Of a stretch of DNA of 57,682 nucleotides, positions 5,140-28,033 are shown piece by piece. Origin of the DNA: a virus. The translations under genes were made by a program, and so were the position numbers. The stretch is taken from positions 1 to 57,682 of the IMG/VR virus record IMGVR_UViG_3300029319_000053; one strand, given 5' to 3'. The notes beneath the pieces were generated by a model. The model searched no databases. It saw only the letters and a program-made list of their open reading frames with translations, and was not told the origin of the DNA. How positions within the stretch are numbered: position 1 is the first letter of the stretch; every line of letters begins with the position of its first letter.

Positions 5140-6156
5140 ATGCATTCAATCAATCCAATCAAACTAAAAGACGAACTCAAGGACTGCATCAATGCGGGCT
5201 ACCCAGCAATGATCTGGGGTGGTCCGGGTATTGGTAAGTCTGAGATACCCGAACAGGTTGCACAAGAGCTAGGAGTCCCACTCATTGATTTTCGTGCTAA
5301 CCTGTTCGATCCTGTTGATGTACGTGGCGTGCCCTACATCAAACAGCTAAAAGAAACTGGTAAAAGGTTTACATCTTGGGCTGTACCTGATGTCTTTCCA
5401 ATCGAGCAACGAGATGGCCCACGCGGCATCTTGTTTATCGACGAGTTGCCAACTGCACCGCCAGCAACACAAAACGCATTCTTGCAGTTGTTGCTGACTA
5501 AACAAATCGGTGAGTACAAATTGCCACCAGGATGGCAGATTGTATGTGCGGGCAACAGATTGACTGACGCAGCAGCTGTTTATCAGATGCCAAGTCCAGT
5601 CAGAAACAGGCTTGCACACTACGAACTTGAACCGTCGCTCGATGACTGGGTACAGTGGGCCTATCAAAACAATCTAGATACAGATGTTATCTCGTTCATT
5701 CAATACAGACCTAACTTACTTTCTGCATTCAACGCAGATGAGTATGCATTTCCAACACCACGTGCTTGGTCAATGGTCAGCAAAAAAATGTCGCGAGCCA
5801 ACTCAGATCCTGAACGTCTATTCTTTGGTGTGTCATCTCTAGTTGGCGATGGTCCAGCTGGTGAGTTTGTTGCATTCAAAGAGATTGCATCTAAGCTACC
5901 AGATATTGATCAGTTGATTAAAGACCCATCTACGTACAAAAAAGATGACAATCCAGCTCTATTGTACGCTTTATCTACTGCTGTGGCAGCTAGAGCAGAA
6001 GATAATCTTATGGAGAACATTATGAAGCTAAACAAAAAGATACCTGTTGAGTTTCAAGTTGTCCTAGTTAAAGGTTGTCTTGCCAAAAACAGAGAACTCA
6101 AATCACACAACGATGTGCGTAAGTGGATCGTTGACAATGCTAATGTTGTTTTATAG
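5140..6156 (+). CDS. MoxR-type AAA+ ATPase
   Basis: The 338-residue protein has Walker A GGPGIGKS at 27-34, Walker B ILFIDE at 97-102, a sensor-1 Asn in CAGNR (139) and the segment DVRGVP at 60-65. This order and spacing match MoxR AAA+ ATPases, chaperone-like enzymes that usually work with a VWA-domain partner to assemble or activate protein complexes, often by metal insertion. The expected partner is encoded at 6901-8010. GGAGGTTAT precedes the ATG. Phage-borne MoxR/VWA pairs are known, but their target is not. Its neighbours here are two related unknown proteins and several tiny membrane proteins. Confidence 0.9.
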   Translation: MHSINPIKLKDELKDCINAGYPAMIWGGPGIGKSEIPEQVAQELGVPLIDFRANLFDPVDVRGVPYIKQLKETGKRFTSWAVPDVFPIEQRDGPRGILFIDELPTAPPATQNAFLQLLLTKQIGEYKLPPGWQIVCAGNRLTDAAAVYQMPSPVRNRLAHYELEPSLDDWVQWAYQNNLDTDVISFIQYRPNLLSAFNADEYAFPTPRAWSMVSKKMSRANSDPERLFFGVSSLVGDGPAGEFVAFKEIASKLPDIDQLIKDPSTYKKDDNPALLYALSTAVAARAEDNLMENIMKLNKKIPVEFQVVLVKGCLAKNRELKSHNDVRKWIVDNANVVL

Positions 6157-6164
6157 GAGGTTAT

Positions 6165-6815
6165 ATGAAAACAGTTAGATTATCAGAAAGACTCAAAGAA
6201 GATATTCTTGAAGCTGCTGAAAAGAAAATCAAAAATACCACACCAGACAAGGACTATCCTATTGATGGATACAAAGTCCTTGATGAACATGGTGTTATTG
6301 ACAAAGTTAATCGTACTCAACAAACATTTAAAAACATTTGGGGTTATCAAATGAAGGTAGATGAGATTGATCAGGTTGAAATTCAATCTGAAATATCAAC
6401 TATTGATGAAGATGGAGATGAAGATAAACACACAAAAACCTACAGGTTATCTTGTAGTCCTATTGATGTGCCTGCTTTTATGTCTGACTATGGTACTTTC
6501 AAACTCAAAGTGCCACCAACAGATCCTACTTTTGTAGAATGTATTACAGTAGAAAAGTACAACTCTGATTTGAGACGTAAACTTTACGACAGAAAAGCTA
6601 AACTTGAAGAGGTTATGTCACGATTTTCTACCTTAAATCAATTACTTAAGGCTGCTCCGTACATGAAAGACTTGGTCCCACAAGAAAAACTTACAAAAAT
6701 GTATGAAAAAGATGACCGTACAGCTAGACGTCAAGAACTTGCAGAAGTTGCAGAAAACGAACTGCAAGACTTACGTGAAACATTGCTTGAAGATGCATTA
6801 CTTGGAGATGACTAA
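6165..6815 (+). CDS. Unknown protein, paralogue A of the MoxR module
   Basis: The 216-residue product shares three blocks with the 8810-9658 product: an N-terminus of the form V-x-x-S-x-R-L-x-x-D-I (VRLSERLKEDI here), a middle block STLNQLLKAAPYMKDLVPQE near residues 155-175, and the extreme end LLGDD. They are clearly related although of different length. The overall shape is faintly like phage proteins annotated as Nmad5 (nucleotide modification-associated), a weak suggestion only. GGAGGTTAT precedes the ATG, 8 bases after the MoxR gene. Helical, no membrane segment. Confidence 0.75.
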   Translation: MKTVRLSERLKEDILEAAEKKIKNTTPDKDYPIDGYKVLDEHGVIDKVNRTQQTFKNIWGYQMKVDEIDQVEIQSEISTIDEDGDEDKHTKTYRLSCSPIDVPAFMSDYGTFKLKVPPTDPTFVECITVEKYNSDLRRKLYDRKAKLEEVMSRFSTLNQLLKAAPYMKDLVPQEKLTKMYEKDDRTARRQELAEVAENELQDLRETLLEDALLGDD

Positions 6816-6904
6816 TGGTTGGAGAAATACCTATTCTAACAATATGTATTACAGCTTCATTGCTTTTTTACATAATTCTTATTAACACACAAGGGAGAAA
6901 ATGA
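6815..6904 (+). CDS. Tiny membrane protein, 29 aa
   Basis: The ATG overlaps the previous stop (TAATG) and the stop overlaps the next ATG (ATGA), so it is coupled on both sides. Residues 4-23 form one hydrophobic segment (EIPILTICITASLLFYIIL). Too short to classify. The position directly before the VWA metallopeptidase gene suggests that it belongs to the same module. Confidence 0.5.
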   Translation: MVGEIPILTICITASLLFYIILINTQGRK

Positions 6905-8010
6905 TGAATCAATTGTTTGTAAAAGCTAGATCCCGTCTTGTGCTAGACAACCCATTCTTTGGTACTTTGTGTCTTAGACAAAAACCTACTGAGTGGGAAG
7001 AACCGACTGGCGCGGTGGACGGCAAGCATTTATTTTACAATCCAAAATGGTTTGAAAGTCTTACAGAACTAGAACGTGTGGGTTTTCTAGCGCACGAAGT
7101 TATGCACCTTGTTCTTATGCATCACACACGTAGACAAGAACGTAATCCACACAAATGGAACGTGGCTGCTGATTATGCAATCAACAATCATTTACTTGCA
7201 GAAGGTTTTATTCTGCCAAAAGGCGGACTTGTAGATGATCAGTACATCGGCATGTCTACCGAGCAAATCTACAATCTTCTACCGGAACCTCCTTCGGGCT
7301 GGGACTCAGAATTTTGTGATACCGGTGGATGTGGCGGTGTGCTGGACGCTGCAGGTGCAGACGGTACGCAAGCTACACAAAGCGCTATTGAAGCAGAGCT
7401 ACAAGTTGCAATCAACCAAGCTGCAGAAGCAGCCAAAGCTCAAGGTAAATTGTCCGCAAACATGGAGTCTATTGTTTCTGATATTACAGAACCAAAAGTA
7501 GATTGGAAGAATGTACTAGCAAGGTTTCTACGTGCTAACAACAAGTCCGATTTCACATGGGCTAGACCAAACAGAAGATTTATTGCATCTGGTATGTATT
7601 TGCCATCTCTTCACAATCCATGTCTAGAAGAGATTGCAATCGCTGTAGATACTTCAGGTTCTATATCAGATGATGAATTGACACAGTTCACCACAGAAAC
7701 TTCGTACATACTGCATGAGCTCAATCCTGAACGTGTGCAGTTTGTACAATGTGACGCAGAAGTAAATGATGTCACTGAATATACTCGTGAATCATTGCCT
7801 CTCAAAGTTACATACAAAGGTCGAGGCGGTACTAGTTTTGCGCCAGTCATTGACTACATCAACGAGCATCATCCTAATGTTGCTGCTCTTGTGTACTTGA
7901 CTGATCTTGAAGCTTGCCAAGACGACTTTGGTGACAAACCACATTACCCAGTGCTTTGGGTAACTACACAAGCAGAGGAGGCTCCTTATGGAGAAGTTAT
8001 CAAAATGTAA
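6901..8010 (+). CDS. VWA-like metallopeptidase (DUF2201 type), partner of MoxR
   Basis: The 369-residue protein joins an N-terminal zinc peptidase-like domain with HEVMH at 65-69 to a C-terminal VWA-like domain whose MIDAS motif DTSGS lies near residue 249. This combination is the DUF2201 family, typically encoded with a MoxR ATPase as here. The HExxH residues and the D-x-S-x-S metal site are both intact. In between are a Gly-rich turn and an Ala/Gln-rich helical linker. The module probably remodels or cleaves a host or phage target, but the substrate is unknown. CACAAGGGAGAAA gives the ribosome site; two adjacent ATGs are possible starts. Confidence 0.88.
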   Translation: MMNQLFVKARSRLVLDNPFFGTLCLRQKPTEWEEPTGAVDGKHLFYNPKWFESLTELERVGFLAHEVMHLVLMHHTRRQERNPHKWNVAADYAINNHLLAEGFILPKGGLVDDQYIGMSTEQIYNLLPEPPSGWDSEFCDTGGCGGVLDAAGADGTQATQSAIEAELQVAINQAAEAAKAQGKLSANMESIVSDITEPKVDWKNVLARFLRANNKSDFTWARPNRRFIASGMYLPSLHNPCLEEIAIAVDTSGSISDDELTQFTTETSYILHELNPERVQFVQCDAEVNDVTEYTRESLPLKVTYKGRGGTSFAPVIDYINEHHPNVAALVYLTDLEACQDDFGDKPHYPVLWVTTQAEEAPYGEVIKM

Positions 8011-10210: not shown

Positions 10211-10621
10211 TTAAGATACGTATATCCAAAGTTCAAGTGTACCAGTTGCAACGTCTGAACCTGGAGCTACTTGACATGTGATATCAATCGTATCATCTGC
10301 TGTATACTCTTTAGGTACAACGTTTGCATCAGTTTCATCACCAACACCGGTTTGTCCACATGTTGAACCATCGATGTAGTAATCTGCATCAGAACCATCA
10401 CCGACATCCCAAACAAGAGATGTTGCTCCATCTAAATCACTAGACTTAAGGAACACTCCATGGACTGTCTCACCAGCAAAGACATCTACCATTTGATAAA
10501 CATCATTTGCATTAGGTGCTGCGCTTATTGTGATTTTTCCCTTTCTTACACCCATATTTCCACTTGGGAAAGGTTTGAAAGCTTGGTTACCACTGACCAT
10601 ATCGCTTGTAAATGTTGCCAT
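10211..10621 (-). CDS. Lone minus-strand gene; probable secreted-free beta-rich virion or decoration protein
   Basis: The chosen start is ATG at 10621 after AAAGGTGAAAAA, giving 136 residues beginning MATFTSDMVSG; a longer frame to 10762 overlaps the promoter and is less likely. The product is rich in Gly, Asp, Thr and Val, with no Lys-rich or membrane segments. Its alternating pattern is typical of beta-sandwich capsid decoration or fibre proteins. This assignment is by composition only. It lies alone among replication genes and has its own promoter (10670-10698), so it is expressed independently of the late block. GSTCGQTGVGDE near residue 90 may be a metal or turn motif. Confidence 0.6.
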   Translation of the reverse strand: MATFTSDMVSGNQAFKPFPSGNMGVRKGKITISAAPNANDVYQMVDVFAGETVHGVFLKSSDLDGATSLVWDVGDGSDADYYIDGSTCGQTGVGDETDANVVPKEYTADDTIDITCQVAPGSDVATGTLELWIYVS

Positions 10622-10669
10622 TTTTTCACCTTTAGTTGTTATGTCACCCAAAATTAGGTAACATCTATA

Positions 10670-10698
10670 GTCATAAAGACAAGAATGCATTTTGTCAA
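10670..10698 (-). promoter_or_regulatory. Sigma70-like promoter for the 10211-10621 gene
   Basis: On the minus strand TTGACA (10698-10693), a 17-base spacer and TATGAC (10675-10670) lie about 50 bases before the ATG. The -35 box is perfect and the -10 matches at four of six positions. This is the best host-type promoter I saw in the window. A TTAATTA/TAATTAA inverted repeat lies just beyond it at about 10700-10720. Confidence 0.7.
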
Positions 10699-10720
10699 GT
10701 TTAATTAACGGAGTAATTAA

Positions 10721-10933
10721 ATGCCCCCAAAACATGTTTGGGTTAAAAGAAACCCCATACACCCATATACATACAATAATCCCGATGATTTACCATACAT
10801 ACAATGGAAGTATGTAAAGCTTTCTGTTGCATACAATATGTATACCAGTAAACAAATTGGTTGGGAGCGTGCAAAAAAACACGAGTACAAAAACTGGTGT
10901 ATAAAAATGCAAAAGTTCAAGGAGGAACTGTAA
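10721..10933 (+). CDS. Hypothetical protein, 70 aa, ahead of the polymerase
   Basis: ACGGAGTAATTAA precedes the ATG. The product is basic and rich in Tyr and Trp (MPPKHVWVKRNPIHPYTYNN, later IGWERAKKHEYKNW). Its stop overlaps the polymerase start as TAATG, and its end carries that gene's AAGGAGG site. First gene of the plus-strand replication run. No family recognised. Confidence 0.6.
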   Translation: MPPKHVWVKRNPIHPYTYNNPDDLPYIQWKYVKLSVAYNMYTSKQIGWERAKKHEYKNWCIKMQKFKEEL

Positions 10934-12732
10934 TGCAAAAAATTTATTTGGATTTCGAAACTTACTACGATGTACAACTGTCGCTTACAAAGATGTCAAC
11001 AGTTCAATACATTAATCACCCTGATTTCAAAGTTTGGGGCGTAGGAATAAAGGTTGAAGATAATGAAACTGAGTGGTACTCAGAAGATGAGACCCCCTCC
11101 GTTTTGGAACAAATCGATTGGGCTAATACTGCCGTCGTTTGCCATAATACATTATTTGACGCTTACATTCTTACACAATACTTCGGATACAGACCTGCGT
11201 TTTATTACGACACTGCGGCCATGAGCCGGGGTTTGTATCCGAATTTGTCTGCTCGACTAAAAGATTGTGTCGTGCGTGAATTTCCATCAGATCTTTCTAA
11301 ACGTAAAGGAGAAGAACTGGTAAACGCCAAATCTGTACGTGATTTAGATCCTGAACTTGACGCACAAATCGGCAGCTACTGTATTCAGGACGTTGACCTG
11401 ACGTACGATCTCTTTCAAAGTTATATTCGTAATTATCCGGACAAAGAAATCCGCATCATTGATTTGACTGTACGAATGTTTGTAGAACCAAAACTTATAT
11501 TAGACCGTGGACTACTGACAACTTACAAAGATGATATAGCAACTCGCACAGAACAAGCGATCCTGGCTTCGGGTACTACACGAGAGGTTCTTGCTTCACA
11601 AGTCAAGTTCAAAGAACATCTTGAATCATTAGATATTGTAGTGCCTACAAAGAAAAGTCCAACCACAGGCCAACAAATACCTGCGTTCGGTAAAAACGAC
11701 AGTGCTTACATACAAATGTGTAATATGTATCCAGAACATTCGAACATTTGGGAAGCCCGTGAGCTGGTAAAGTCACGTATAGAAGAAACCAGAGCGCAAC
11801 GATTTATTGACTCTACCAACCCTGATGGTACGTTCAGCGTACCGCTGCGTTACTATGCCGCACATACAGGTCGTTTTGGTGGCTCGGACAAAATCAACCT
11901 GCAGAACCTGCCAAGAGGCTCAACACTTAGACGTGCAATCATGGCCCCTGAAGGACAACGATTGTACATAGCTGACTTATCTAATATCGAAGCACGTATG
12001 CTAGCCTGGCTGGCTAAAGAGCACGAACTCGTGCAGGCTTTTGCCACAGGCCGTGATGTATATTGTGAATTTGCTTCACAAATATATGGTCGCACAATTA
12101 CTAAAGATGACAAGCTAGAAAGATATGTAGGTAAAACAGCTATACTCGGTCTGGGGTACGGAATGGGGGCCGATAAGTTTAAGCTAACGCTCAAAACTGG
12201 CTCCCCCTCCGTTGAAATATCTGATTCTGTAGCGCAAAATATTGTTATGCAATATCGAGGTATGTATCCAAACATACCAAGATTGTGGTCAGGTATGAAA
12301 GACGCACTTTTTCAGATGGTAAACCCACGCGGTGTAGGCCTGAAGTACGGACCCCTTACCATCAACCGAAGAGCTCTTTTATTACCAAACAATATGTCTC
12401 TTAGTTATCCAGACTTACGATACCAAGGTGGAGAGTTTGTGTACGATACCAGCAAGGGCACATACATACGTACGCATGGGCCTCGAGTTACGGAGAATGT
12501 TGTTCAAGCACTTGCTCGTATTGTTATCACTGACCAAATGTTGGACATACAATCGTTGCCACAAGTAGACATTGTTTTACAGGTGCATGATGAGATTATA
12601 GCTATTGGTTCAAAGCTAGAAGCAGATGATACAATGAATAAAATTATTGACATTATGCGTACCCCACCTGAATGGTGTAACGATTTACCGCTCGATGCTG
12701 AAGGGGGAGTAAGTAAAATATATGACAAATAA
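10933..12732 (+). CDS. polA: Family A DNA polymerase with 3'-5' exonuclease
   Basis: The start after AAGGAGGAACTGTA gives 599 residues. Proofreading motifs are present: DFET (D7, E9), HNTLFD and YCIQDVD. Polymerase motif A is DLSNIEAR, motif B K-TAILGLGYG, and motif C QVHDE, with the conserved RFGG and NLQNLPR segments before motif A. The residue matching E. coli Pol I Phe762 is Leu405, read from K-T-A-I-L. It replicates the phage DNA together with the primase-helicase downstream. It is shorter than bacterial Pol I because the 5' nuclease domain is absent, as in many phages. It overlaps the csrA-like gene by 11 bases. Confidence 0.95.
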   Translation: MQKIYLDFETYYDVQLSLTKMSTVQYINHPDFKVWGVGIKVEDNETEWYSEDETPSVLEQIDWANTAVVCHNTLFDAYILTQYFGYRPAFYYDTAAMSRGLYPNLSARLKDCVVREFPSDLSKRKGEELVNAKSVRDLDPELDAQIGSYCIQDVDLTYDLFQSYIRNYPDKEIRIIDLTVRMFVEPKLILDRGLLTTYKDDIATRTEQAILASGTTREVLASQVKFKEHLESLDIVVPTKKSPTTGQQIPAFGKNDSAYIQMCNMYPEHSNIWEARELVKSRIEETRAQRFIDSTNPDGTFSVPLRYYAAHTGRFGGSDKINLQNLPRGSTLRRAIMAPEGQRLYIADLSNIEARMLAWLAKEHELVQAFATGRDVYCEFASQIYGRTITKDDKLERYVGKTAILGLGYGMGADKFKLTLKTGSPSVEISDSVAQNIVMQYRGMYPNIPRLWSGMKDALFQMVNPRGVGLKYGPLTINRRALLLPNNMSLSYPDLRYQGGEFVYDTSKGTYIRTHGPRVTENVVQALARIVITDQMLDIQSLPQVDIVLQVHDEIIAIGSKLEADDTMNKIIDIMRTPPEWCNDLPLDAEGGVSKIYDK

Positions 12733-12907
12733 AAATTTAATACTTACTAGAAAAAAAGCCGAACGTGTAGTTGTTCATGTCCAGGGAAAGAAAATATGTA
12801 CGATAACTGTTACAGATATTTCTCAAAAATCTTGTAAATTAGGTTTTGAAGCAGATAAGTCTGTACGTATAGATAGAGAGGAAGTATACTTAGATAAGGA
12901 GATTTAA
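12722..12907 (+). CDS. csrA: CsrA-like RNA-binding regulator
   Basis: The 61-residue product aligns over its length with CsrA/RsmA: LILTRKKAE at the start (LTR at 8-10), a central beta-strand pattern ICTITVTDI, then LGFEADKSVRIDREEVY. The two RNA-contact zones of CsrA, L-T-R near the N-terminus and R-E near the end (R52, E53), are kept. CsrA dimers bind GGA motifs in mRNA leaders and control biofilm, motility and carbon storage. GGGGGAG precedes the ATG, which lies inside the polymerase gene, so it is made with the replication proteins. Phage CsrA homologues are known; targets here are unknown. Confidence 0.85.
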   Translation: MTNKNLILTRKKAERVVVHVQGKKICTITVTDISQKSCKLGFEADKSVRIDREEVYLDKEI

Positions 12908-12909
12908 TT

Positions 12910-15399
12910 ATGGAAGTTGTGTTCTTAAAAGCTAAAAAACCTTTGGCTAAAGAAATATCAGAAGAAGGCATTAAACCATATCCACTTACTAAAAACTTTA
13001 CTTCAGAACATTTTGATATTTCTACAGACCAAAAAGGTTTAAATAAATTATATAAATTACTTACGGATCAAGCTGCAAACGGAGCTTGTTTGCACAAAGG
13101 TTCTCTTAAACGTCCACTTAAAGATGAATCAAGAGCCTTTATGTCAGAACGTGCAAAAACAACGGAAATGTTGGTATTAGATGTAGACGGATTACATACA
13201 TCTAATCCAGGTGATCTTCAAGCACTTGCCGAAAAAATCGTACTACAATTACCTGAAGCCTTTCATAACGTATCGTATATAGCTCAAGCTTCAGCTTCAT
13301 TAGGATTTAAGAAGAATACTGTTTCTTTACATTTGTTTTTTCTTTTAGACATGCCCGTACATCCAAAAACTCTGAAGGACTTTATACGCATGGTAAATTA
13401 CAACAGTGATTTTCTTGCAGAACAAATAACATTATCAGCAAATGGTCAAAGTCTTTCGTACATACTTGACCCTTCAGTTGCAGATAATAGTAAATTAATT
13501 TATATTGCACCACCAAAGTTTGTTGGTGTAGAAGACCCCTACCCAAATAATAGATTCATCAAGGTTGACCGTGGTTCGCCAACCCTCGAGATCTCCTCTA
13601 CTTTAATTGGCGTCAATCCAGAAAAAGTGCACGCTTTAGGATTACAAATTAAAGATAATCTAAGGAAGAAAAACAACCTTCCAAAGAGAGTAGGCAAAGT
13701 AACTACGGTCAACGTTGCTGGTGAAGCGCACGAAGTACTACAAAACCCAGACAAAATGACCATCCAGATCTCTCGTGTGTACGAACCTTTTGTTAACTGT
13801 AATGTAAATGGAGGCGACAGCGGAGGTTATTACTTTGTACTTACTAACCCACATTACATGTATAACTTTAAAGGAGAACCTATTTGGGAAATAGAAAAAG
13901 CAGACCCAGACTTTTATAGAAGTATATTTGAAATATTTGCAGATAAAATAGATACAGAATCTAAAAAGAAACCAATAGTCTTACGAGACTTTTTTACAGA
14001 TACATATTACAACGGAGTGTATGATGAAACAAAACAACAATTTGACGACAGCTACCCACTTACGCCCACAGGCAAAAGTAGTATTAACGATTTTCTTAAG
14101 TCTCATGGTCGCCCTACCATGGATTTTGTTCCAGACGCTCGTGTCGTATTTGATCCTAGTAGTGACAAAGGTGTTGACTTGGAAACCGTTCCATATTCAG
14201 TAAATTTATTTAGGCGTACGCCCTATATGCTGCGTGCAGAAGAAAACGTAAAAGAATTATCGTACGGTGAAGCCATTCAGATAGCAAAAATTGCACCTAA
14301 TTTTTACAAACTAGTTATGCACGCGCTTGGTAATGGCAAACCAGAATTTGAACATTTTATAAATTGGCTTGCGTACATTTACCAGCATAAAAAGAAAACA
14401 ATGACTGCGTGGATATTTACTGGCATACCGGGTACTGGTAAAGGTTTATTTATTCATAAAATACTAAAACCTTTATTTGGTGAACAACAAACACCCATGA
14501 GAGCTTTAGAAAATATAGAAGAACAATTTAACTTATATATGAGAACAGCATTGTTTCTTGTAGTTGATGAGTTTCGTATGGCTGATTCAGGATCTGTAGG
14601 ACGTATGGCCGACAAATTAAAACACCAAATTACAGAACCTAATCTTACTATAAGAGCAATGCGTACAAATCAAATCGAACTGCCATCTTTTACAAACTTT
14701 ATCTTTCTTACTAACAGAGCAGATGCAGTCAAGATTGAAGACAGTGACAGAAGATACAACGTAGCGCCACGACAAGAACAAAAAATAGAAAACGTACATC
14801 CAGATCTCCTGGAGAATTTGTCCGTGTTAGAACCAGAGTTGTATATAGTTGCTGGTGTACTACAGAAATTTGTGGTAAATGAACGTATGGCTCACACAGC
14901 ATTAGAAAACGATGCAAAAAAAGAAATGAAAGAAGTGTCTATGTCTATTCTTGAAGAATTTGCAAATGCAATACGTACACGTAACCTTGAGTACTTTACG
15001 GACGTGTTAGATATACCGCTTGCAAATACATTTGACGCAGGTGGTATTAGTACAGCACAAAGATATTTAAAAGACTGGTTAGCTAGCGCAGGTCAAGAAC
15101 AAGTCATACCATTAGCTCATTTTAAAGTAGTGTATGACGTTCTTACTGACAGTCGTAATACTTTGTCTCAACGTGAGTTTTCGAAACGTATGTCCAGGCT
15201 AAACATTAAAACTGCACGTAAACGTATAAGTAAAGATCGTACAGCCGGCATACCCCGTGGGGTTGTGTTGACATGGAAAATAGATAATAATGTATTGCAA
15301 CAGTTAATAAAAGAACACTTTGACGAACGGGATTTAAATTTATTAGATAATGGACAATCTAACGCAACCCAATCGTCCAGACCTAATAGCAACAGTTGA
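12910..15399 (+). CDS. AEP-type primase fused to helicase
   Basis: The 829-residue protein starts 3 bases after csrA, with ATAAGGAGATT upstream. The N-terminal part has the DxD metal site in MLVLDVDGLH (D91, D93) and an SxH motif in TVSLHLFF (about 139-141), as in archaeo-eukaryotic primases. The C-terminal part is a P-loop helicase with Walker A GIPGTGKG at 505-512 and an acidic Walker B segment FLVVDEF. This is the build of phage and plasmid primase-helicases of the DUF5906/NrS-1 type. It would prime and unwind for the family A polymerase. A Gln/Ser/Asn-rich tail ends the protein. Confidence 0.85.
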   Translation: MEVVFLKAKKPLAKEISEEGIKPYPLTKNFTSEHFDISTDQKGLNKLYKLLTDQAANGACLHKGSLKRPLKDESRAFMSERAKTTEMLVLDVDGLHTSNPGDLQALAEKIVLQLPEAFHNVSYIAQASASLGFKKNTVSLHLFFLLDMPVHPKTLKDFIRMVNYNSDFLAEQITLSANGQSLSYILDPSVADNSKLIYIAPPKFVGVEDPYPNNRFIKVDRGSPTLEISSTLIGVNPEKVHALGLQIKDNLRKKNNLPKRVGKVTTVNVAGEAHEVLQNPDKMTIQISRVYEPFVNCNVNGGDSGGYYFVLTNPHYMYNFKGEPIWEIEKADPDFYRSIFEIFADKIDTESKKKPIVLRDFFTDTYYNGVYDETKQQFDDSYPLTPTGKSSINDFLKSHGRPTMDFVPDARVVFDPSSDKGVDLETVPYSVNLFRRTPYMLRAEENVKELSYGEAIQIAKIAPNFYKLVMHALGNGKPEFEHFINWLAYIYQHKKKTMTAWIFTGIPGTGKGLFIHKILKPLFGEQQTPMRALENIEEQFNLYMRTALFLVVDEFRMADSGSVGRMADKLKHQITEPNLTIRAMRTNQIELPSFTNFIFLTNRADAVKIEDSDRRYNVAPRQEQKIENVHPDLLENLSVLEPELYIVAGVLQKFVVNERMAHTALENDAKKEMKEVSMSILEEFANAIRTRNLEYFTDVLDIPLANTFDAGGISTAQRYLKDWLASAGQEQVIPLAHFKVVYDVLTDSRNTLSQREFSKRMSRLNIKTARKRISKDRTAGIPRGVVLTWKIDNNVLQQLIKEHFDERDLNLLDNGQSNATQSSRPNSNS

Positions 15400-19596: not shown

Positions 19597-21348
19597 TTAT
19601 ACAGTATACACTTTTAATGGTTTCTCTTTACCTTTTACTTGAATCTTTCCGTGTGGGGAACATTTGTCCACTTTTTCTGCTGTACGTTCTCCAATAAGAA
19701 TATCCACTCCATATTTTTTAGTTGCACTTTCTAATCGTGCAGCTATATTCACAGCATCTCCTATAGCTGAATAATCAAATCTTGTATTACTGCCCATGTT
19801 TCCTACTACAGCTTCACCCGTATTTATACCTATACCTATGGCAATTGGTTCAGGCAATTCTTTCTGCAGCATACGCATTGCCGTGCGCATATCACGAGCA
19901 CAGGCGACAGCACGTTGTTCATGTTTATCAATCATTAGGGGGGAATTGAATATGGCCATACATGCGTCGCCTATGAATTTGTCCACCATCCCACCGTGGG
20001 CCTGGATGCACGTAACTTGTTCAGTTAATACTCTATTCATTATTTCTGTTACTTGTTCAGGTTCTAACTTTTCAGATAAGTTTGTAAATCCCCTAACATC
20101 AGTAAACAAAAACGTGCAAGTTCTACGTTCTCCTCCTAATTTAAGTAAGCTAGGATCTTTTTGTAATCGTGCAACTTGTCTGGGATCCAGATAGTGCTCG
20201 AACTGTTTTTTTATCTGTTGTCTTAATTTATATTGTTCCCCAAACCTTAACCAAAATTCTTGTACGGATGTAAGTGTTATAGCTACTGCGCTATAACTAA
20301 AGTCTATAAGTATATTATTTCGTACAAACCATACTGCAGCTATAGCAATACTTGTATACAGAACAATCATACCAACCATAGTGCCTGCAACGGGTAAACT
20401 ACGTATTATAATTATGCTTAATATTAAACATCCTATCAGTATAAGTAATTCATATAATAGGCTTGCACCCGGTATTTGAGGCACATTTACTGTTAAACTT
20501 TCAGCCATTGCAGCTTGTACTTCATGCGGATACAACAACCCAGCTGGCGTAGCTATTTGAGGCATGACACCTTTTGCAGTCACACCCACAAACACAAACC
20601 TATCTTTTACATCCATCTCTTGAAGCGTAGTTCGTGGAGTATCACTCCATGTTACCCATCGTCTTCCTATTTTATCTACTGGTATTTGTGCATAATTAGG
20701 TAAAGTAAGCTCTACAATCTCACTCTTCTGGCCCTTAATAATGTACGTATCTGACCCAGATATCACCTTCATAACTTCCATACCAAATGCCGGCGTCCAA
20801 CCATCTGGTGTTTGTAACAATAAAGGTAATCTTCTTACTAATTTATCTACATCTGTTCGTGCAACAGCCAAGCCCTGGCTGCTAACATTTGCAAGTTCGT
20901 ACGTATTTTGTATCACACCCTGTGCAGGAATCGCTTGTACGGGAATCCCATCGCCTAATATAACTGTGCCTGTTGTTGGGGGGTAGTTCCCATTATCATT
21001 TTCAAACATTGCAAGAACGCTTGGTGTGCCTGCCAACGCATCAGCAAAAGCTTTATCTCCACCAAATCTATCTGGTTGAGGAAAGGCGACGACCCAACCC
21101 ACGCCCCAAGCACCTGCCTCTATGAGGTCTGAATGAATTTCAGCAAGTTCTTGACGAGGGAACGGCCAGCCGCCCATCATGGAAACATCTTCTTCTGTTA
21201 TATCTAGTAATACAAAAGTGCCAGAAGGTTCAGGTATCTGCACAAGAGCATCAAATGTTTTTAACTTAAGGACTTCGAGAGCTTGCCAATTAAATAATAA
21301 TGGCATACATAGTATTGGTATGCTAAGTAACGAAATCCATTTCTTCAT
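19597..21348 (-). CDS. Membrane CHASE2-adenylate cyclase
   Basis: The 583-residue protein begins with an anchor (residues 5-20), followed by an extracytoplasmic CHASE2 sensor (FDALVQIP, WPFPR at 61-65, FPQPDRFGGD at 89-98). Three membrane segments span about 298-365. A class III nucleotidyl cyclase domain follows from about 405. The metal-binding Asp residues (D417 in FTDVRGFT, D461 in GDACMAIF), the adenine-selecting Lys457 and Asp525, and the transition-state Asn534 and Arg538 are all present, so an active adenylate cyclase is expected. ATGA couples it to the FecR gene. Membrane sensing linked to cAMP synthesis is rare in phages; recent transfer from a bacterium is likely, as FecR/CHASE2-cyclase pairs are common there. 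Confidence 0.92.
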   Translation of the reverse strand: MKKWISLLSIPILCMPLLFNWQALEVLKLKTFDALVQIPEPSGTFVLLDITEEDVSMMGGWPFPRQELAEIHSDLIEAGAWGVGWVVAFPQPDRFGGDKAFADALAGTPSVLAMFENDNGNYPPTTGTVILGDGIPVQAIPAQGVIQNTYELANVSSQGLAVARTDVDKLVRRLPLLLQTPDGWTPAFGMEVMKVISGSDTYIIKGQKSEIVELTLPNYAQIPVDKIGRRWVTWSDTPRTTLQEMDVKDRFVFVGVTAKGVMPQIATPAGLLYPHEVQAAMAESLTVNVPQIPGASLLYELLILIGCLILSIIIIRSLPVAGTMVGMIVLYTSIAIAAVWFVRNNILIDFSYSAVAITLTSVQEFWLRFGEQYKLRQQIKKQFEHYLDPRQVARLQKDPSLLKLGGERRTCTFLFTDVRGFTNLSEKLEPEQVTEIMNRVLTEQVTCIQAHGGMVDKFIGDACMAIFNSPLMIDKHEQRAVACARDMRTAMRMLQKELPEPIAIGIGINTGEAVVGNMGSNTRFDYSAIGDAVNIAARLESATKKYGVDILIGERTAEKVDKCSPHGKIQVKGKEKPLKVYTV

Positions 21349-22433
21349 CCTGACCCCTGTGTGATTGTAATAGTAGAATTACCTCCACCATTAACTACAA
21401 TCTGTTGGTATTTACCATCCTGTATTAAGATAATAGTGTAACCTTGAGCACTGTTTACCGTCAACTGTGCATTTTGATTGACCTTTCTTTGGAATGCAAT
21501 TTGTTCGCCTTGCAATAAAGTAATTATTTGAGTTTCTAAATCTTGTCCTATTTCTGTGCCTTGTATTGAAGTACCTACAGTCAATTTTTTAGTATCTAAC
21601 TCATCTATTTCTTCTATAATTTCTAATAAATCTTCAAAAAAGTTTATATCTAAAAAGTTTATATCTAGCTCTGTAAACTCTAATGTATCCTCAGCTAAAT
21701 AATCTTGCTCTAGCTCATTAAACTCTAAATAGTCTATATCTAATATAGCTCCGCTATCTGCTACGGACGTTGTGGATGACTCTGTGGATAAGTCTTGTTC
21801 GTCCGGAGGCGTAACAATAAGCATGTTATCTATTACATCTAAAGTAAGATCAAGTATTACAGGTTTGCTTGGGGTTGTTTCCCATACTTCTACAGTTGTA
21901 GCTTGGTAGGGTTTGTTAAGAGTAACGCTACCTGTAGCAGTAGTAACAAGTATCTCACCACTAGAAATACCGTTAGCGTCAGGTAATAAAATAATGAGAG
22001 AACGCCCCAGTTCATCAACCGTGCATGTAAAATCTGTACCTCTGATAGCAATATCAGCGGTAGGTGTGGATAGTCTAATATTCTTTTTATCAATTTTGCC
22101 TAACCTACTGCTTATAAATCTAGCCGTGCCACTTGCAAATTGCAGAGCCATTTTACCTTTTGAAGGATCCGGGTCAAATATATATTCAGTAATAACTAAT
22201 TTAGAGTTTTCAGTTAAACGTACAATAGAGTTGTCCAGGAAAGTAATTCCTACACGGCCCGCATTAGTGCGGACATCGTCCATTTGTTGAATGCCAAAGT
22301 CTAACTCAGCCCCGTAAGACTTGTCTCGTATTACTTCAGCAGAGCCATTTAGCTCAGATATATCTCCAATATTAGCAGCTTGTGCTTGTACCGCCGTCGT
22401 TTTGAATAACGCACACAGTACCATTATTGCCAT
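21345..22433 (-). CDS. Secreted FecR-domain protein
   Basis: The chosen start (Met at 22433) gives a Sec signal peptide MAIMVLCALFKTTAVQAQA. A FecR domain follows, with NIGDISELNGSAEV and the family hallmark STPTADIAIRGTDF near 122-135. Then comes an unusual acidic, Leu/Phe-rich stretch (about 226-286, e.g. LEFTELDINFLDINFFEDLL) and an end reading GGGNSTITITQGSG, which resembles a curlin repeat. Starts up to 22550 keep the frame open, but overlap the curlin gene by 180 bases. FecR domains act in the periplasm in signal relay. Bacterial genes of this kind often sit beside CHASE2-cyclases, as here. Confidence 0.82.
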   Translation of the reverse strand: MAIMVLCALFKTTAVQAQAANIGDISELNGSAEVIRDKSYGAELDFGIQQMDDVRTNAGRVGITFLDNSIVRLTENSKLVITEYIFDPDPSKGKMALQFASGTARFISSRLGKIDKKNIRLSTPTADIAIRGTDFTCTVDELGRSLIILLPDANGISSGEILVTTATGSVTLNKPYQATTVEVWETTPSKPVILDLTLDVIDNMLIVTPPDEQDLSTESSTTSVADSGAILDIDYLEFNELEQDYLAEDTLEFTELDINFLDINFFEDLLEIIEEIDELDTKKLTVGTSIQGTEIGQDLETQIITLLQGEQIAFQRKVNQNAQLTVNSAQGYTIILIQDGKYQQIVVNGGGNSTITITQGSG

Positions 22434-23070
22434 TAGATATAATTTTAAGCCAGTCCCTAGCCAATGTAGATGATTGCGTAATGTTAAAAGTCCTGCTGTT
22501 GCCTGTTTGGTCAAGATAGAAATATCCATTTTGATATCCACTTCCGTCAAATGTTATTGAGTTAGAGTCCCCATCCACGTCTACATAAGATGTGCCTAGG
22601 TCATAATCAATGTCAAAATCAAACTCGTTGCTATCTCCATTAATTATCCAGTCTAAGTCAAGTGTCGAAGCTAAAGCATTAGTACCAACATTTAAATCAA
22701 AGTCGTTACTAGAACCAGTTACGTCTACATTGTAGTTACCTGAATCTGCGCCATATGTATTGGTTGGGTCTACTTGTATATCGAATACGTTGCTATCTCC
22801 ATCAAACTCAAAAAAGCCTGTAATGCTATCTCCTAAGATATCACCTAAGAATTTGTTTGAGCTACCTATCTGATTTATATCTAAAGTAAGATTTAAACCA
22901 TCAAGATCGAGCGCGGTCATAGTACCACTAACAGCATTTAATCCACCGATGATGTTAGATGAACCTAATTGTTCTATATCTATGTTTGCGTTATTCCCGG
23001 ACTGGTCAACATATACTTCATTGTCAGCATACAAAAAACCAACTAATAGTAAGGGTAAAAGTTTTTTCAT
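22372..23070 (-). CDS. Secreted curlin-like repeat protein (CsgA/B-like)
   Basis: A short Sec signal peptide (MKKLLPLLLVGFLYA) is followed by eight or nine imperfect repeats of about 20-25 residues, each with a (Q/D)-x-x-G-x-S-N core: IEQLGSSN, INQIGSSN, FDGDSN, VTGSSN, INGDSN, VDGDSN, LDQTGNS. Curlin repeats have Q-x-G-x-x-N at the same spacing. The first two and the last match well. The middle ones have Asp in place of Gln, making the protein acidic. With csgG and csgF directly upstream, it is the obvious candidate substrate for export and surface fibre formation. It ends with two cysteines (TVCVIQ, SC). GGAGTTATAA precedes the ATG. Confidence 0.8.
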   Translation of the reverse strand: MKKLLPLLLVGFLYADNEVYVDQSGNNANIDIEQLGSSNIIGGLNAVSGTMTALDLDGLNLTLDINQIGSSNKFLGDILGDSITGFFEFDGDSNVFDIQVDPTNTYGADSGNYNVDVTGSSNDFDLNVGTNALASTLDLDWIINGDSNEFDFDIDYDLGTSYVDVDGDSNSITFDGSGYQNGYFYLDQTGNSRTFNITQSSTLARDWLKIISNGNNGTVCVIQNDGGTSTSC

Positions 23071-23882
23071 TTATAACTCCAATATCCAGCTTGTTCACCC
23101 TCCTTGATAATTTCTAATACGGCTGTTTCTATGGCAGAACGCAAAGCAAGTCCTCCAGACTCATTTCGCACCACACCACTTTCTATCTCTACTAATTCAG
23201 TACCAGCTTCAATAAAACGAAACACGTCGTCTGTTAATGATACACTAAGAATGGTCTTAGATACTAGTTTTTCAAGTAACACCTGACCTGAGTTTACAGA
23301 CACAAGACGCAATTGTATGGTTATTGAGTCTGTTCTATAAGCCTTAGATATACCAATCCCTAAATATCTAGCACCTGCCCCACCAGATGTTACATTAGAT
23401 TCATATGAAACTACTGACCCTTCTAATAATAAACCTGCAAACAACAAAGTACCTATCTTTGTATTGTCTTTATTCTCAGTTCTACCACTACGGATTATCT
23501 GGCGTTCTTTAGTTAAGTTATCTAACCCACCTCTTTCTACTACGGTAAAAAAACCCCCATTTTGTTTACATGCGTCTTTAAGAGCTTTGATAAGATAGGC
23601 GCTAGGTTGTTGAGTTATAGCGGTAGAGAAGCTAGCATACATAGAATTACTAAGTCTTTGACCTGTTTGGTCTGTAAATGCGCTTCCGTACACAGCTACA
23701 GTTGGTTTTCTTTCAGGCGTACGGCATTCTTGCAAGTCTGTTATAACTAGCTCTTCTATTTGTGCTGATTCGATTTTCCGTATCGGGGCTATGTTATTTT
23801 CTATAGGGTCTTCTATTAATAACGAAGCGCAACTAGAAAGTAAAAGAACCGATAGGTACCGTAATTTCTGTAGTATTGCCAT
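23067..23882 (-). CDS. csgG: CsgG, curli secretion channel lipoprotein
   Basis: The 271-residue product (E. coli CsgG has 277) has lipobox LSSC with Cys18. It aligns well with CsgG through VVERGGLDNLTKERQIIRS, GGAGARYLGIG, TKTILS-like SKTILSVSL and FRFIEAGTELVE, up to the C-terminal YWSYK. In E. coli CsgG forms a nonameric outer-membrane pore. Its constriction residues Tyr51, Asn55 and Phe56 align here with Ser, Ser and Phe (SNSMYASFSTA), so the ring may be wider or differ in selectivity. ATGA links it to the curlin gene. The upstream csgF gene overlaps its start by 50 bases. Confidence 0.95.
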   Translation of the reverse strand: MAILQKLRYLSVLLLSSCASLLIEDPIENNIAPIRKIESAQIEELVITDLQECRTPERKPTVAVYGSAFTDQTGQRLSNSMYASFSTAITQQPSAYLIKALKDACKQNGGFFTVVERGGLDNLTKERQIIRSGRTENKDNTKIGTLLFAGLLLEGSVVSYESNVTSGGAGARYLGIGISKAYRTDSITIQLRLVSVNSGQVLLEKLVSKTILSVSLTDDVFRFIEAGTELVEIESGVVRNESGGLALRSAIETAVLEIIKEGEQAGYWSYK

Positions 23883-24351
23883 CTGGGTCTGTTATCTTTA
23901 AGGTTATCATTGTACCATCTTCACTTACACTATACTCAATAGTATTACCCATCAATTCAATGATACCTTGTGTTTGAGGAGTGTCTCCAAACAAAGCATC
24001 TACTAGTTGTCTCGATAACTGTGCATATATTCTAGACTCTAAGTTACGTATAAATCTTGCAAGCGTAGTGTTTTCTGCATCTCTTTTAAGCTGTTCTTTA
24101 TAAGCTTTTAGTTCTGCTTTAATATTTTCTTTACGATTAAACTCTTGGTTCTCAATAGTAAGATAATGTGAACTAGTGCCTACTCCACTAAAACTAGGGT
24201 TTTTAAAGCCATGCACTATTTGATCTGCTTTTAAATTTAAACCTATTATTCCTAAAAATAAAATAAGGCCTATTACTAATACAACTTTATACAGAACTAT
24301 TTTTTCTGCATATTCTTTTTCTAATTGTTTTTTAGTCTTTTCTTTGGTCAT
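23833..24351 (-). CDS. csgF: CsgF, curli assembly factor
   Basis: The start chosen is ATG at 24351, after GGCGGATAGAG; a TTG start at 24369 is possible. After a charged N-terminus (MTKEKTKKQLEKEYAEK) comes a hydrophobic segment ending LNLKA, then QIVHGFKNPSFSG, the match to CsgF FxFRNPNFGG. The second half carries LESRIYAQLSRQLVDALFG and the closing strand pair VSEDGTMITLKITDPDGNTT, as in CsgF. In E. coli CsgF docks into the CsgG pore and helps nucleate fibres. The N-terminal extension (172 aa here versus 138) is unusual and may keep it membrane-anchored. It is the first gene of the curli cassette, overlapping the holin-like gene by 20 bases. Confidence 0.85.
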   Translation of the reverse strand: MTKEKTKKQLEKEYAEKIVLYKVVLVIGLILFLGIIGLNLKADQIVHGFKNPSFSGVGTSSHYLTIENQEFNRKENIKAELKAYKEQLKRDAENTTLARFIRNLESRIYAQLSRQLVDALFGDTPQTQGIIELMGNTIEYSVSEDGTMITLKITDPDGNTTEITVPIGSFTF

Positions 24352-24682
24352 CTCTATCCGCCTTGGCAATTTTATTGCTATCTATAAGTTGAGGCACGCC
24401 AAGAATAGTTTTAATCAAAGTGTCTTGTCTTATAATTTCATTGTCTAAACTACGCACCCTGTCTATTAATGCTACTAAAATACCATGCTGTGAGTCAAGT
24501 TTAGTGCCAAGCCTTTGTTCTACGGCGCTTATTTGTTCTGCTACTTTATCATCGACAGTGTCTAATTTTGTTTCCATACCGTCAACAATACGCATTATTA
24601 ATTTATAAATAAACCACCCTAAACCTAGAGCAGCTGCAATAGGAAAACCTACTTCTTGGATTACAGTGACTGCTGATTCCAT
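24332..24682 (-). CDS. Holin-like membrane protein with coiled coil
   Basis: The start overlaps the previous stop (TGATG). One N-terminal membrane segment (about residues 8-30, VGFPIAAALGLGWFIYKLIM) is followed by a coiled coil of about 70 residues (DDKVAEQISAVEQRLGTKLD). This build matches phage holins of the BhlA/UviB kind or antiholin-like proteins. It lies between the 3-TM holin candidate and the curli genes, so it is probably part of the lysis group. Confidence 0.7.
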   Translation of the reverse strand: MESAVTVIQEVGFPIAAALGLGWFIYKLIMRIVDGMETKLDTVDDKVAEQISAVEQRLGTKLDSQHGILVALIDRVRSLDNEIIRQDTLIKTILGVPQLIDSNKIAKADRDDQRKD

Positions 24683-26102: not shown

Positions 26103-28033
26103 TATGCCTCCGAGAACCTATAAAACGCAAATTGTACAGATGAAAGGAATCTGTTACTTCCATCTCCTTGCGCTAGTATATATAAAGCCATAGTAGAACT
26201 AGTGCTACTTGTTTTTCTTACAGATACGTCTAACTGCACCATATGATTTGTGCTATCAAATCTATCAATAGCTGACCAAAACTGTGATTGTCCTGAATGG
26301 TATTGAGCAGATCCACTATCTGCAATAGGTACATTCATATTAGAGTTATTTGAGTACGCAAAATCACTTCTTAAATCAAAACTAGAACCAGACCCATAAC
26401 TACCATCTCCTATAACTATACTAAGTGTTTTAACTTGTCCATTGCTACCAAAAACACGAACGTAACCACTGTATATACCAGTCGCTGTGCCAATATCAGC
26501 TACGTGTACTAGACGCATAGTATTATTAGCCCAAGGTCCCACACTAGATACAGTGCCTCTAGCTATGGGTAAAACTAAATTTGTTACATTAATTTTATCA
26601 GCAGTAATAGTATTAGAATCAATTCTATCCGCAGATAAAAAACCTGCATTTATTTTAGTTGCGTTTAAATCATTTATCTTTGCGTTAGTGATTTGTGCAT
26701 CACCTACGAGCGCAGTTGTAATATTTGCCGTCGCAATTTTAGCCGTTGTAATTTGAGCGTCTCCAATCTTAGCCGTTGTAATCGCTGCGTTTGAAATTTT
26801 AGCACTTTGAATTGTTCCGTCTAAAATACGTGCATTTGTTATAGCTCCGTCTTGGATACGCGCGCTGTCTATAAATACTGAACCCCCACTAACTATAAAA
26901 GGTGCTACGTTAGTACTACCACTAAATATAGCAAACTTATCTGCTTGAAATTGCACAAAAGATTGTGCTCCTGAGCCATCACTAGCATTAGAGCCAATCA
27001 CCATTCCAGCTACTGATTTACTATTGTTAGACTCTGTAGCTACTTGCAATACAAACATTGCATTAAGATCACCTGTATGACTAGCTGTAGTAGTATTCAA
27101 CGTGTTAATTGAACTAGTGTTGCCATTAACAGTAGAGGTCAAACTAGTTACAGAAGATGCAGTAGCATTTTGTGCATTAGTTACTGTAACAATGTCAGAC
27201 TGAGCAGTAGCCATAGCCGCAGTTAAAGTGCTACCTGTAAAACTAGTACTACCAAAAAGATTAACTAGTGTTGCATCACGTCCTGCCACCCAAGCATTAT
27301 TAGAAGCATTTCGTGTATATATTTGACCGTCATCAGTATCAAACCAAATATCAAAAGCCCCTATAGATGAACCGTCTGCTCTGGTACTTGGTGCACTAGA
27401 AGATTTTATTACGTTAGCAGCTGCTGCTGTTGTAGTTATTAAATTAAATCCAGGTAAGTTAGATAAACTTTCTGATAGCTGTTGCATAACAGCTCCTATA
27501 TTTTCTATAGTATCTGCTTTTGTGCCGTTAGTTTGATTAAAAGGCCCTCTTACATTACTGGTGCTTACAAACCTAACCCAATAAAAATATGTCTGATCAT
27601 AGCCAACGGGGTCTGTAATAATAAAAGAAGCAGTAGTTGTTATAAGAGTTGCAGTTCCTACCTCATCATCTCTTGAACGCCACACCTCTGTAAAAGCATG
27701 GTTACTATACTGAGCGGGGTTCCAAGTAACTATTATTTCTGTAAAAGCACCAGAAGCCTCTAGGCCTGTAGGAGCAGGAGGAATAGTTAAATCGCCTTTT
27801 TGATCATCGTTGGGTATAAAATCAATAAGACCATTTGGGTCAAACGGTCTCTCACTTAGACGTTTTGCTAAACCGCTTTCTACAAGTTCTCTAAGAGTAA
27901 CAGCTCTATCTAAAGGGTCGCCACGTCTACCTAATCTAATCTCTTGAGCTTCTCTCATGGACTCAAGAGTATCTCTTAATTCTCTATCTATTTTTGGTGG
28001 GATGTTTTTTAAGGCAGGAACTTTAGTAGACAT
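26102..28033 (-). CDS. Tail/host-specificity protein with fibronectin III domain and AKI repeats
   Basis: The 643-residue protein has a charged head, a fibronectin type III domain (IPPAPTGLEASGAFTEIIVT to about residue 165), a Ser/Thr-rich middle, and a long run of 8-12-residue repeats with the core (A/T)-A-K-I (QITTAKIATANITTALVGDA and so on, about 395-475). The end is a beta-sandwich tip. This is the C-terminal build of lambda J-like proteins, usual in siphophages, here joined to a podovirus-like virion. It probably contacts the host surface. The stop overlaps the GTG of the next gene. Confidence 0.8.
   Translation of the reverse strand: MSTKVPALKNIPPKIDRELRDTLESMREAQEIRLGRRGDPLDRAVTLRELVESGLAKRLSERPFDPNGLIDFIPNDDQKGDLTIPPAPTGLEASGAFTEIIVTWNPAQYSNHAFTEVWRSRDDEVGTATLITTTASFIITDPVGYDQTYFYWVRFVSTSNVRGPFNQTNGTKADTIENIGAVMQQLSESLSNLPGFNLITTTAAAANVIKSSSAPSTRADGSSIGAFDIWFDTDDGQIYTRNASNNAWVAGRDATLVNLFGSTSFTGSTLTAAMATAQSDIVTVTNAQNATASSVTSLTSTVNGNTSSINTLNTTTASHTGDLNAMFVLQVATESNNSKSVAGMVIGSNASDGSGAQSFVQFQADKFAIFSGSTNVAPFIVSGGSVFIDSARIQDGAITNARILDGTIQSAKISNAAITTAKIGDAQITTAKIATANITTALVGDAQITNAKINDLNATKINAGFLSADRIDSNTITADKINVTNLVLPIARGTVSSVGPWANNTMRLVHVADIGTATGIYSGYVRVFGSNGQVKTLSIVIGDGSYGSGSSFDLRSDFAYSNNSNMNVPIADSGSAQYHSGQSQFWSAIDRFDSTNHMVQLDVSVRKTSSTSSTMALYILAQGDGSNRFLSSVQFAFYRFSEA

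Follow-up and report, generated by a model that had tools for sequence, protein, structure and literature searches.

The window, by which we mean the whole 57,682-nucleotide stretch of viral DNA analysed here (IMG/VR record IMGVR_UViG_3300029319_000053), encodes a CsrA-family protein from a core gene of its marine phage family. We propose, with a probability of about 0.6, that this protein has the mRNAs of the phage itself as its main targets and regulates the translation of replication and early genes. The computed support comprises the protein family, the fold, the contact residues, the position of the gene, and conserved hairpins and covariation before polA and its neighbours. Given that phage genes carry conserved Csr-type hairpins, it is probable that CsrA controls the early genes of the phage itself.

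A CsrA-family protein with intact RNA-contact residues

The gene belongs to a segment of plus-strand genes, which is headed by a small ORF named here orf70:

10721..10933, + strand: orf70, 70 aa, head of the polA-csrA-primase segment, conserved in relatives
10933..12732, + strand: polA, family A DNA polymerase, 599 aa (DNA_pol_A, E 7.4e-30)
12722..12907, + strand: csrA-family gene, 61 aa (PF02599, CsrA fold, 65-protein residue table)
12910..15399, + strand: primase/helicase-like gene, 3' of csrA (DUF5906, phage primase profiles)

A preliminary description of this DNA had reported a CsrA-like regulator at 12722-12907 (+) and had suggested a profile search with the family as a check. The ORF is present as described, with an ATG start, and the identification is borne out by the PF02599 (CsrA) profile, which matches it with 48.5 bits (E 8.6e-13) against a curated cut-off of 27 bits. 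PHROG 9500, 'CsrA-like regulator', also matches (E 7.5e-8), and the sequence matches of the protein include solved CsrA/RsmE chains. The scores against the NCBIfam equivalogs TIGR00202 and NF002469, 34.5 and 36.4 bits, lie far under their cut-offs of 70.1 and 73, so that the protein is to be considered a member of the CsrA family and not an equivalog of bacterial csrA. The predicted model of the monomer exhibits the CsrA fold, with beta1-beta5 plus a helix (pLDDT 77). Its best PDB matches are all CsrA, RsmA or RsmE, with TM 0.7-0.8 at a Foldseek E of only ~3e-3, and the VIA comparison gives a Z of 7.8 to 1vpz, the next unrelated structure being at 2.8.

Phage residues L8, R10 and R52 are equivalent to L4, R6 and R44 of E. 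coli CsrA, among which L4 and R44 are critical RNA-contact residues (PMC7652899). The statement that the RNA-contact residues are kept holds across the family: a comparison of 65 distinct proteins finds no exception at L4, T5, R6, R44 or E46 (numbered as in E. coli CsrA); R7 is either K or R, and V42 and H43 are replaced by I and D. Relative to the E. coli protein, the CsrA of the window has an N-terminal extension of 4 residues, which across the phage family reads MTNKN or shorter, and a beta2-beta3 hairpin longer by 4 residues. The median dN/dS of csrA is ~0.22, for pairs of moderate divergence and with the overlap excluded.

Conserved position between polA and primase

The ATG of csrA precedes the polA stop codon, so that the two genes share 11 nt (ATGACAAATAA), and the primase gene begins 2 nt past the csrA stop, in agreement with the earlier claim that csrA overlaps polA and is encoded among the replication genes. 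The start of polA is most likely ATG 10933, not the TTG 10861 of the mechanical call, on the basis of a conserved N-terminus and of the TAATG overlap with the upstream ORF. A PHROG search with this ORF, orf70, gave no match.

The same preliminary description had proposed looking for csrA at this position in related phages, where it was indeed found. Among viral contigs, 50 relatives were retrieved, 48 of them between polA and primase, and the geometry of the 11-nt overlap is identical in 48/48 in-slot loci of this first set. When the search was based on the primase, csrA was found in the slot of every relative whose contig extends there, down to 68% primase identity; altogether, the relatives yielded 121 copies of csrA. 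Two more distant cultured relatives, the Pseudomonas phage KPP25 and the Aeromonas phage phiA008, are without csrA: the gene order of KPP25 is different, and phiA008 has another small ORF in the polA-primase slot. The latter (L065:5726-5914) encodes an unannotated protein of 62 aa with a possible treble-clef zinc finger; its reading as DksA-like was dropped, Pfam giving only a weak treble-clef match (DUF2116), and no relatives of the phiA008 primase were found in viral contigs. Two further features of the surrounding region may be mentioned. The plus-strand early region is broken by a virion-structural-like gene of the minus strand (window 10211-10657), a position kept in most relatives. Elsewhere, a gene for an AAA+ ATPase precedes one for a DUF2201 VWA/metallopeptidase-like protein (window 5140-8010), a MoxR-VWA-type pair that is conserved family-wide.

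Candidate Csr-type hairpins at ribosome-binding sites

According to published work, a Csr/Rsm site presents its GGA within a hairpin loop, which in the RsmE complex takes the form of an ANGGAN hexaloop (PMC7652899). A scan of leaders for such sites pointed to the neighbours of csrA, namely orf70, polA and the primase:

10699..10722, + strand: hairpin 1, at the orf70 Shine-Dalgarno, ANGGAN hexaloop, GUUUAAUUA-ACGGAG-UAAUUAAAU
10914..10929, + strand: hairpin 2, at the polA Shine-Dalgarno, ANGGAN hexaloop, AGUUC-AAGGAG-GAACU
12890..12907, + strand: hairpin 3, at the primase Shine-Dalgarno, within the last csrA codons, UUAGAU-AAGGAG-AUUUAA

Hairpin 2, which sits within the last orf70 codons, is the minimum-energy fold (z -3.1 to -3.5). 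Over 19 distinct rows, 94.7% of the cells are paired, with double changes in 4/5 pairs and a covariation score of 0.276 vs 0.161 when shuffled (0/500); covariation is far lower in slid controls. Relatives carry AGTTC-AAGGAG-GAACT at the end of orf70, before whichever gene comes next, as well as variants that still pair (AATTC/GAATT, AATCC/GGATT and a CTT/AAG core). In some of them (L016, L018, L022 and L027) the end of orf70 differs and the hairpin is noncoding, lying past the stop codon. All 39 coding copies spell Phe as TTC, a codon used for 0/14 Phe residues in the rest of orf70 and for 20% in three genes of the window. The exact 20-mer of hairpin 2 occurs in 54 stretches among 2.9 million viral contigs, all of them from this phage family. 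We also observed that, downstream of orf70 in relatives, an exact AGTTCAAGGAGGAACTATGA element can be present twice, the two copies lying ~160-490 nt from each other at junctions between consecutive small genes (L217, L223, L230, L245 and L257), as if small genes were swapped between identical RBS-hairpin seams.

Hairpin 1 consists of nine A/U-rich pairs and its fold is unremarkable (z -0.6 to -0.9). The cells are paired at 92.9% over 20 distinct rows; as the changes are mostly one-sided, its covariation, which does not exceed that of shuffles, is weak and constitutes no proof. The loop reads ACGGAG or AGGAG among relatives. Just 5' of this hairpin lies a second stem, GACAAGA...TTTTGTC (window 10678-10696 and equivalents), which is kept in relatives with a loop that varies between AGGAG, ATGGA, ATAGA and ACAGA. 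Hairpin 3 is not the minimum-energy fold in its 101-nt context, and it was rejected as a conserved site, being mostly absent in relatives and kept in some close ones only. Autoregulation of csrA at its own leader was also rejected, as a hairpin was present in 0/62 distinct csrA leaders.

We hypothesise that CsrA, made from the replication gene cluster, would bind the short hairpins whose A(N)GGA(N) loop displays the Shine-Dalgarno, ahead of orf70, polA, the primase and other early genes. Once bound, it would compete with the ribosome and may thereby lower or time translation. Because the cluster that encodes its candidate targets also produces CsrA, such binding could also exert feedback on the genes of the cluster.

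The loop of these hairpins coincides with the Shine-Dalgarno core, so that any hairpin centred on a Shine-Dalgarno would have nearly this loop, and translation coupling is for this reason a serious rival. It would imply that the function of the hairpins lies in initiating or coupling translation, with the Shine-Dalgarno displayed in the loop and opened, or kept accessible, by upstream ribosomes, and that they are unconnected with CsrA, both merely coexisting in one lineage. The location of hairpin 2 at a stop/start overlap is typical of coupling, and the identical hairpin copies between consecutive small genes might mark recombination seams. However, the ACGGAG loop of hairpin 1, the main variant that departs from the Shine-Dalgarno core, weakens Shine-Dalgarno pairing yet retains A(N)GGA. 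We regard coupling as conceivable but doubtful, a judgement that also takes into account the distribution of hairpins across genomes.

Hairpin enrichment across csrA-bearing genomes

In a register test on 15 csrA+ genomes (hairpins of at least five pairs, expectation from flank permutation, gene starts from a simple caller), the GGA of the Shine-Dalgarno was found in NGGAN loops 31 times vs 6.3 expected, and in NNGGAN loops 26 times vs 6.1. Other loop registers were mostly near expectation; 2+2 and 3+2, which are nested in NGGAN/NNGGAN, exceed it, with a milder excess at 3+0 and 4+0. Several single csrA+ genomes reached P 0.005 to 0.01, in curli-bearing and in curli-less clades, with different stems. 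Sorted by downstream gene, the hairpins of csrA+ genomes fall into 27 families, 14 of which are present in at least two genomes, and their stems differ while the loop is the same. Counted as unique sites, hairpins occupy 30/644 in csrA+ genomes (6.3 expected) vs 8/625 (3.8 expected) in 829 kb of csrA-less HMO-2011-type marine phage DNA with equal flank GC (Fisher P 4e-4), a link between hairpins and csrA that represents in effect one evolutionary contrast, since the csrA+ genomes are related. The nine named csrA-less phages together have 7 hairpins vs ~3.4 expected. The small excess in csrA-less phages counts in favour of coupling; against it, the excess is much stronger in the csrA+ family, and a constant A(N)GGA loop is found inside differing stems.

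At the level of single genomes the signal has its limits: the window alone, in which the gene caller missed hairpin 1, gives 2 hairpins vs 0.6 expected, which is not significant (P 0.10), and no enrichment was found in the unrelated csrA+ phages VvAW1 and Pavtok. In a first scan, which counted simple ANGGA stems near starts and missed AGGAN pentaloops, leaders were similar to coding sequence. A search of the window with Rfam for sponge RNAs like CsrB, CsrC, RsmY or RsmZ returned only two sub-threshold chance matches. A separate observation concerns the curli-less sister clade (G057, G058, G059 and G061), in which the stem CACAC-A(A)GGAG-GTGTG stands before several small genes, for example at 27533-27548 and 28090-28105 in G059.

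It can be surmised, with slightly better than even odds, that a core csrA gene of the replication cluster and scattered RBS hairpins with an A(N)GGA(N) loop constitute a phage-encoded Csr regulon in this lineage, whose hairpin stems and gene membership change among relatives.

Host-directed alternatives

Earlier work has suggested that phage RsmA/CsrA proteins manipulate the host and may act as anti-CRISPRs, and the presence of CsrA in phage and host is correlated (PMC8450108; PMC7366521). The protein described here could be a mimic that binds GGA-containing host mRNAs (motility, biofilm, cas, metabolism) or competes with the CsrA of the host, and its intact contact residues are compatible with this role. 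The conserved candidate sites that we found are nevertheless in the phage genome. The sole near relative in bacterial genomes, L168 (PBPT01000002.1, 60,834 bp), belongs to this phage family, carries csrA and CsgG and was binned with a Neomarinimicrobiota MAG, and the CsrA of the phage is the only one in that bin, which also speaks against a mimic, bearing in mind that binning is no proof of a host and that the association may be either a hint of the host or contamination. A search of the window for tRNA genes found none. We consider a host-directed role unlikely, and it could coexist with control of phage mRNAs.

csrA is widespread in bacteria. It can also be imagined that it is the CsrA of the host that binds the hairpins, the site type being the same, and that phage CsrA displaces or imitates the host protein, thereby releasing or tuning phage genes, which we judge improbable.

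Separability from the curli/cyclase cassette

The window also carries a cassette on the opposite strand:

19597..24369, - strand: curli/cyclase cassette with CsgF, CsgG, curlin-repeat, FecR and CHASE2 cyclase genes (Pfam)

The preliminary description suggested that CsrA, the curli genes and the cyclase jointly rewire the host surface. This proposition is in line with the role of bacterial CsrA in biofilm and lifestyle decisions (PMC7652899), and csrA does co-occur with CsgG and CHASE2 in the longest contigs of the window's clade. On the other hand, G057, G059 and G061 (56.6 to 58.8 kb) carry csrA together with the sequences on either side of the cassette site, yet no cassette member, CsgG and CHASE2 included, and phage HTVC008M has CsgF, CsgG, curlin, FecR and CHASE2 cyclase genes but gave no match when searched for CsrA. 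Each thus occurs without the other, in three relatives and in HTVC008M respectively, and the cassette is separable from csrA; moreover, no Csr-type hairpin was found before the curli, FecR or cyclase genes in the window leaders scanned. As a functional unit, csrA and the cassette were rejected after testing in both directions, and this part of the preliminary description did not survive; a joint action on the host surface now appears very improbable. For phage CsgGF pores, a lysis-related role has been proposed (PMC9004378).

The curli modules of HTVC008M and Melnitz have CsgG/CsgF in common with the window, and that of HTVC008M (L185 7562-13807) shares the curlin, FecR and CHASE2 cyclase genes as well; no csrA was found with these modules. 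The similar CsgF-CsgG-curlin-FecR-CHASE2 order in the two suggests that the whole module has been exchanged between unrelated marine phages, the family described here being podovirus-like and HTVC008M a T4-like pelagiphage.

Comparison with known systems

The occurrence of csrA in phages has already been published (PMC8450108; PMC7366521), and IMG/VR had already been searched for it (PMC8450108). In the papers found, phage-borne CsrA is read as an anti-host tool and no phage target is named. In the open-licence literature we found no paper that describes targets of a phage CsrA within the genome encoding it; what appears to be new is hence not phage CsrA, which is known, but its apparent own regulon. 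Conserved Csr-type hairpins in the phage genome offer a directly testable alternative to the host-directed reading, in which a borrowed bacterial regulator would take part in post-transcriptional control of replication genes, as a counterpart of T4 RegA in an uncultured marine lineage. They also provide well-defined RNA ligands with which binding by a phage CsrA of this group could be tested for the first time.

With the CsrA/RsmA family, which includes phage-borne members (types of Burkholderia DC1, Pavtok, VvAW1 and P. aeruginosa F116), the window family has in common the protein family, the fold and L4/R6/R44. It differs by the MTNKN extension, the 4 extra beta2-beta3 residues, an invariant D in place of H43 and a short C-terminus, and further by its fixed polA-primase slot and by apparent cognate hairpins in the phage genome. 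In T4, too, the mRNA of the phage DNA polymerase has a hairpin in its control region, the gp43 autoregulatory operator (PMC3014915), but there it is the polymerase itself that binds, and the loop and geometry are unlike those of the polA hairpin of the window. The best-supported reading, translational regulation of the phage's replication and early genes, has a counterpart in T4 RegA, which blocks initiation on ~30 phage mRNAs and is encoded in the replication cluster (PMC3014915). Both are small RNA-binding proteins from a phage replication cluster; RegA is an unrelated protein whose sites have no defined structure, whereas the candidate sites of phage CsrA are hairpins. Phage CsrA would thus resemble T4 RegA in place and in logic, presumably as a repressor.
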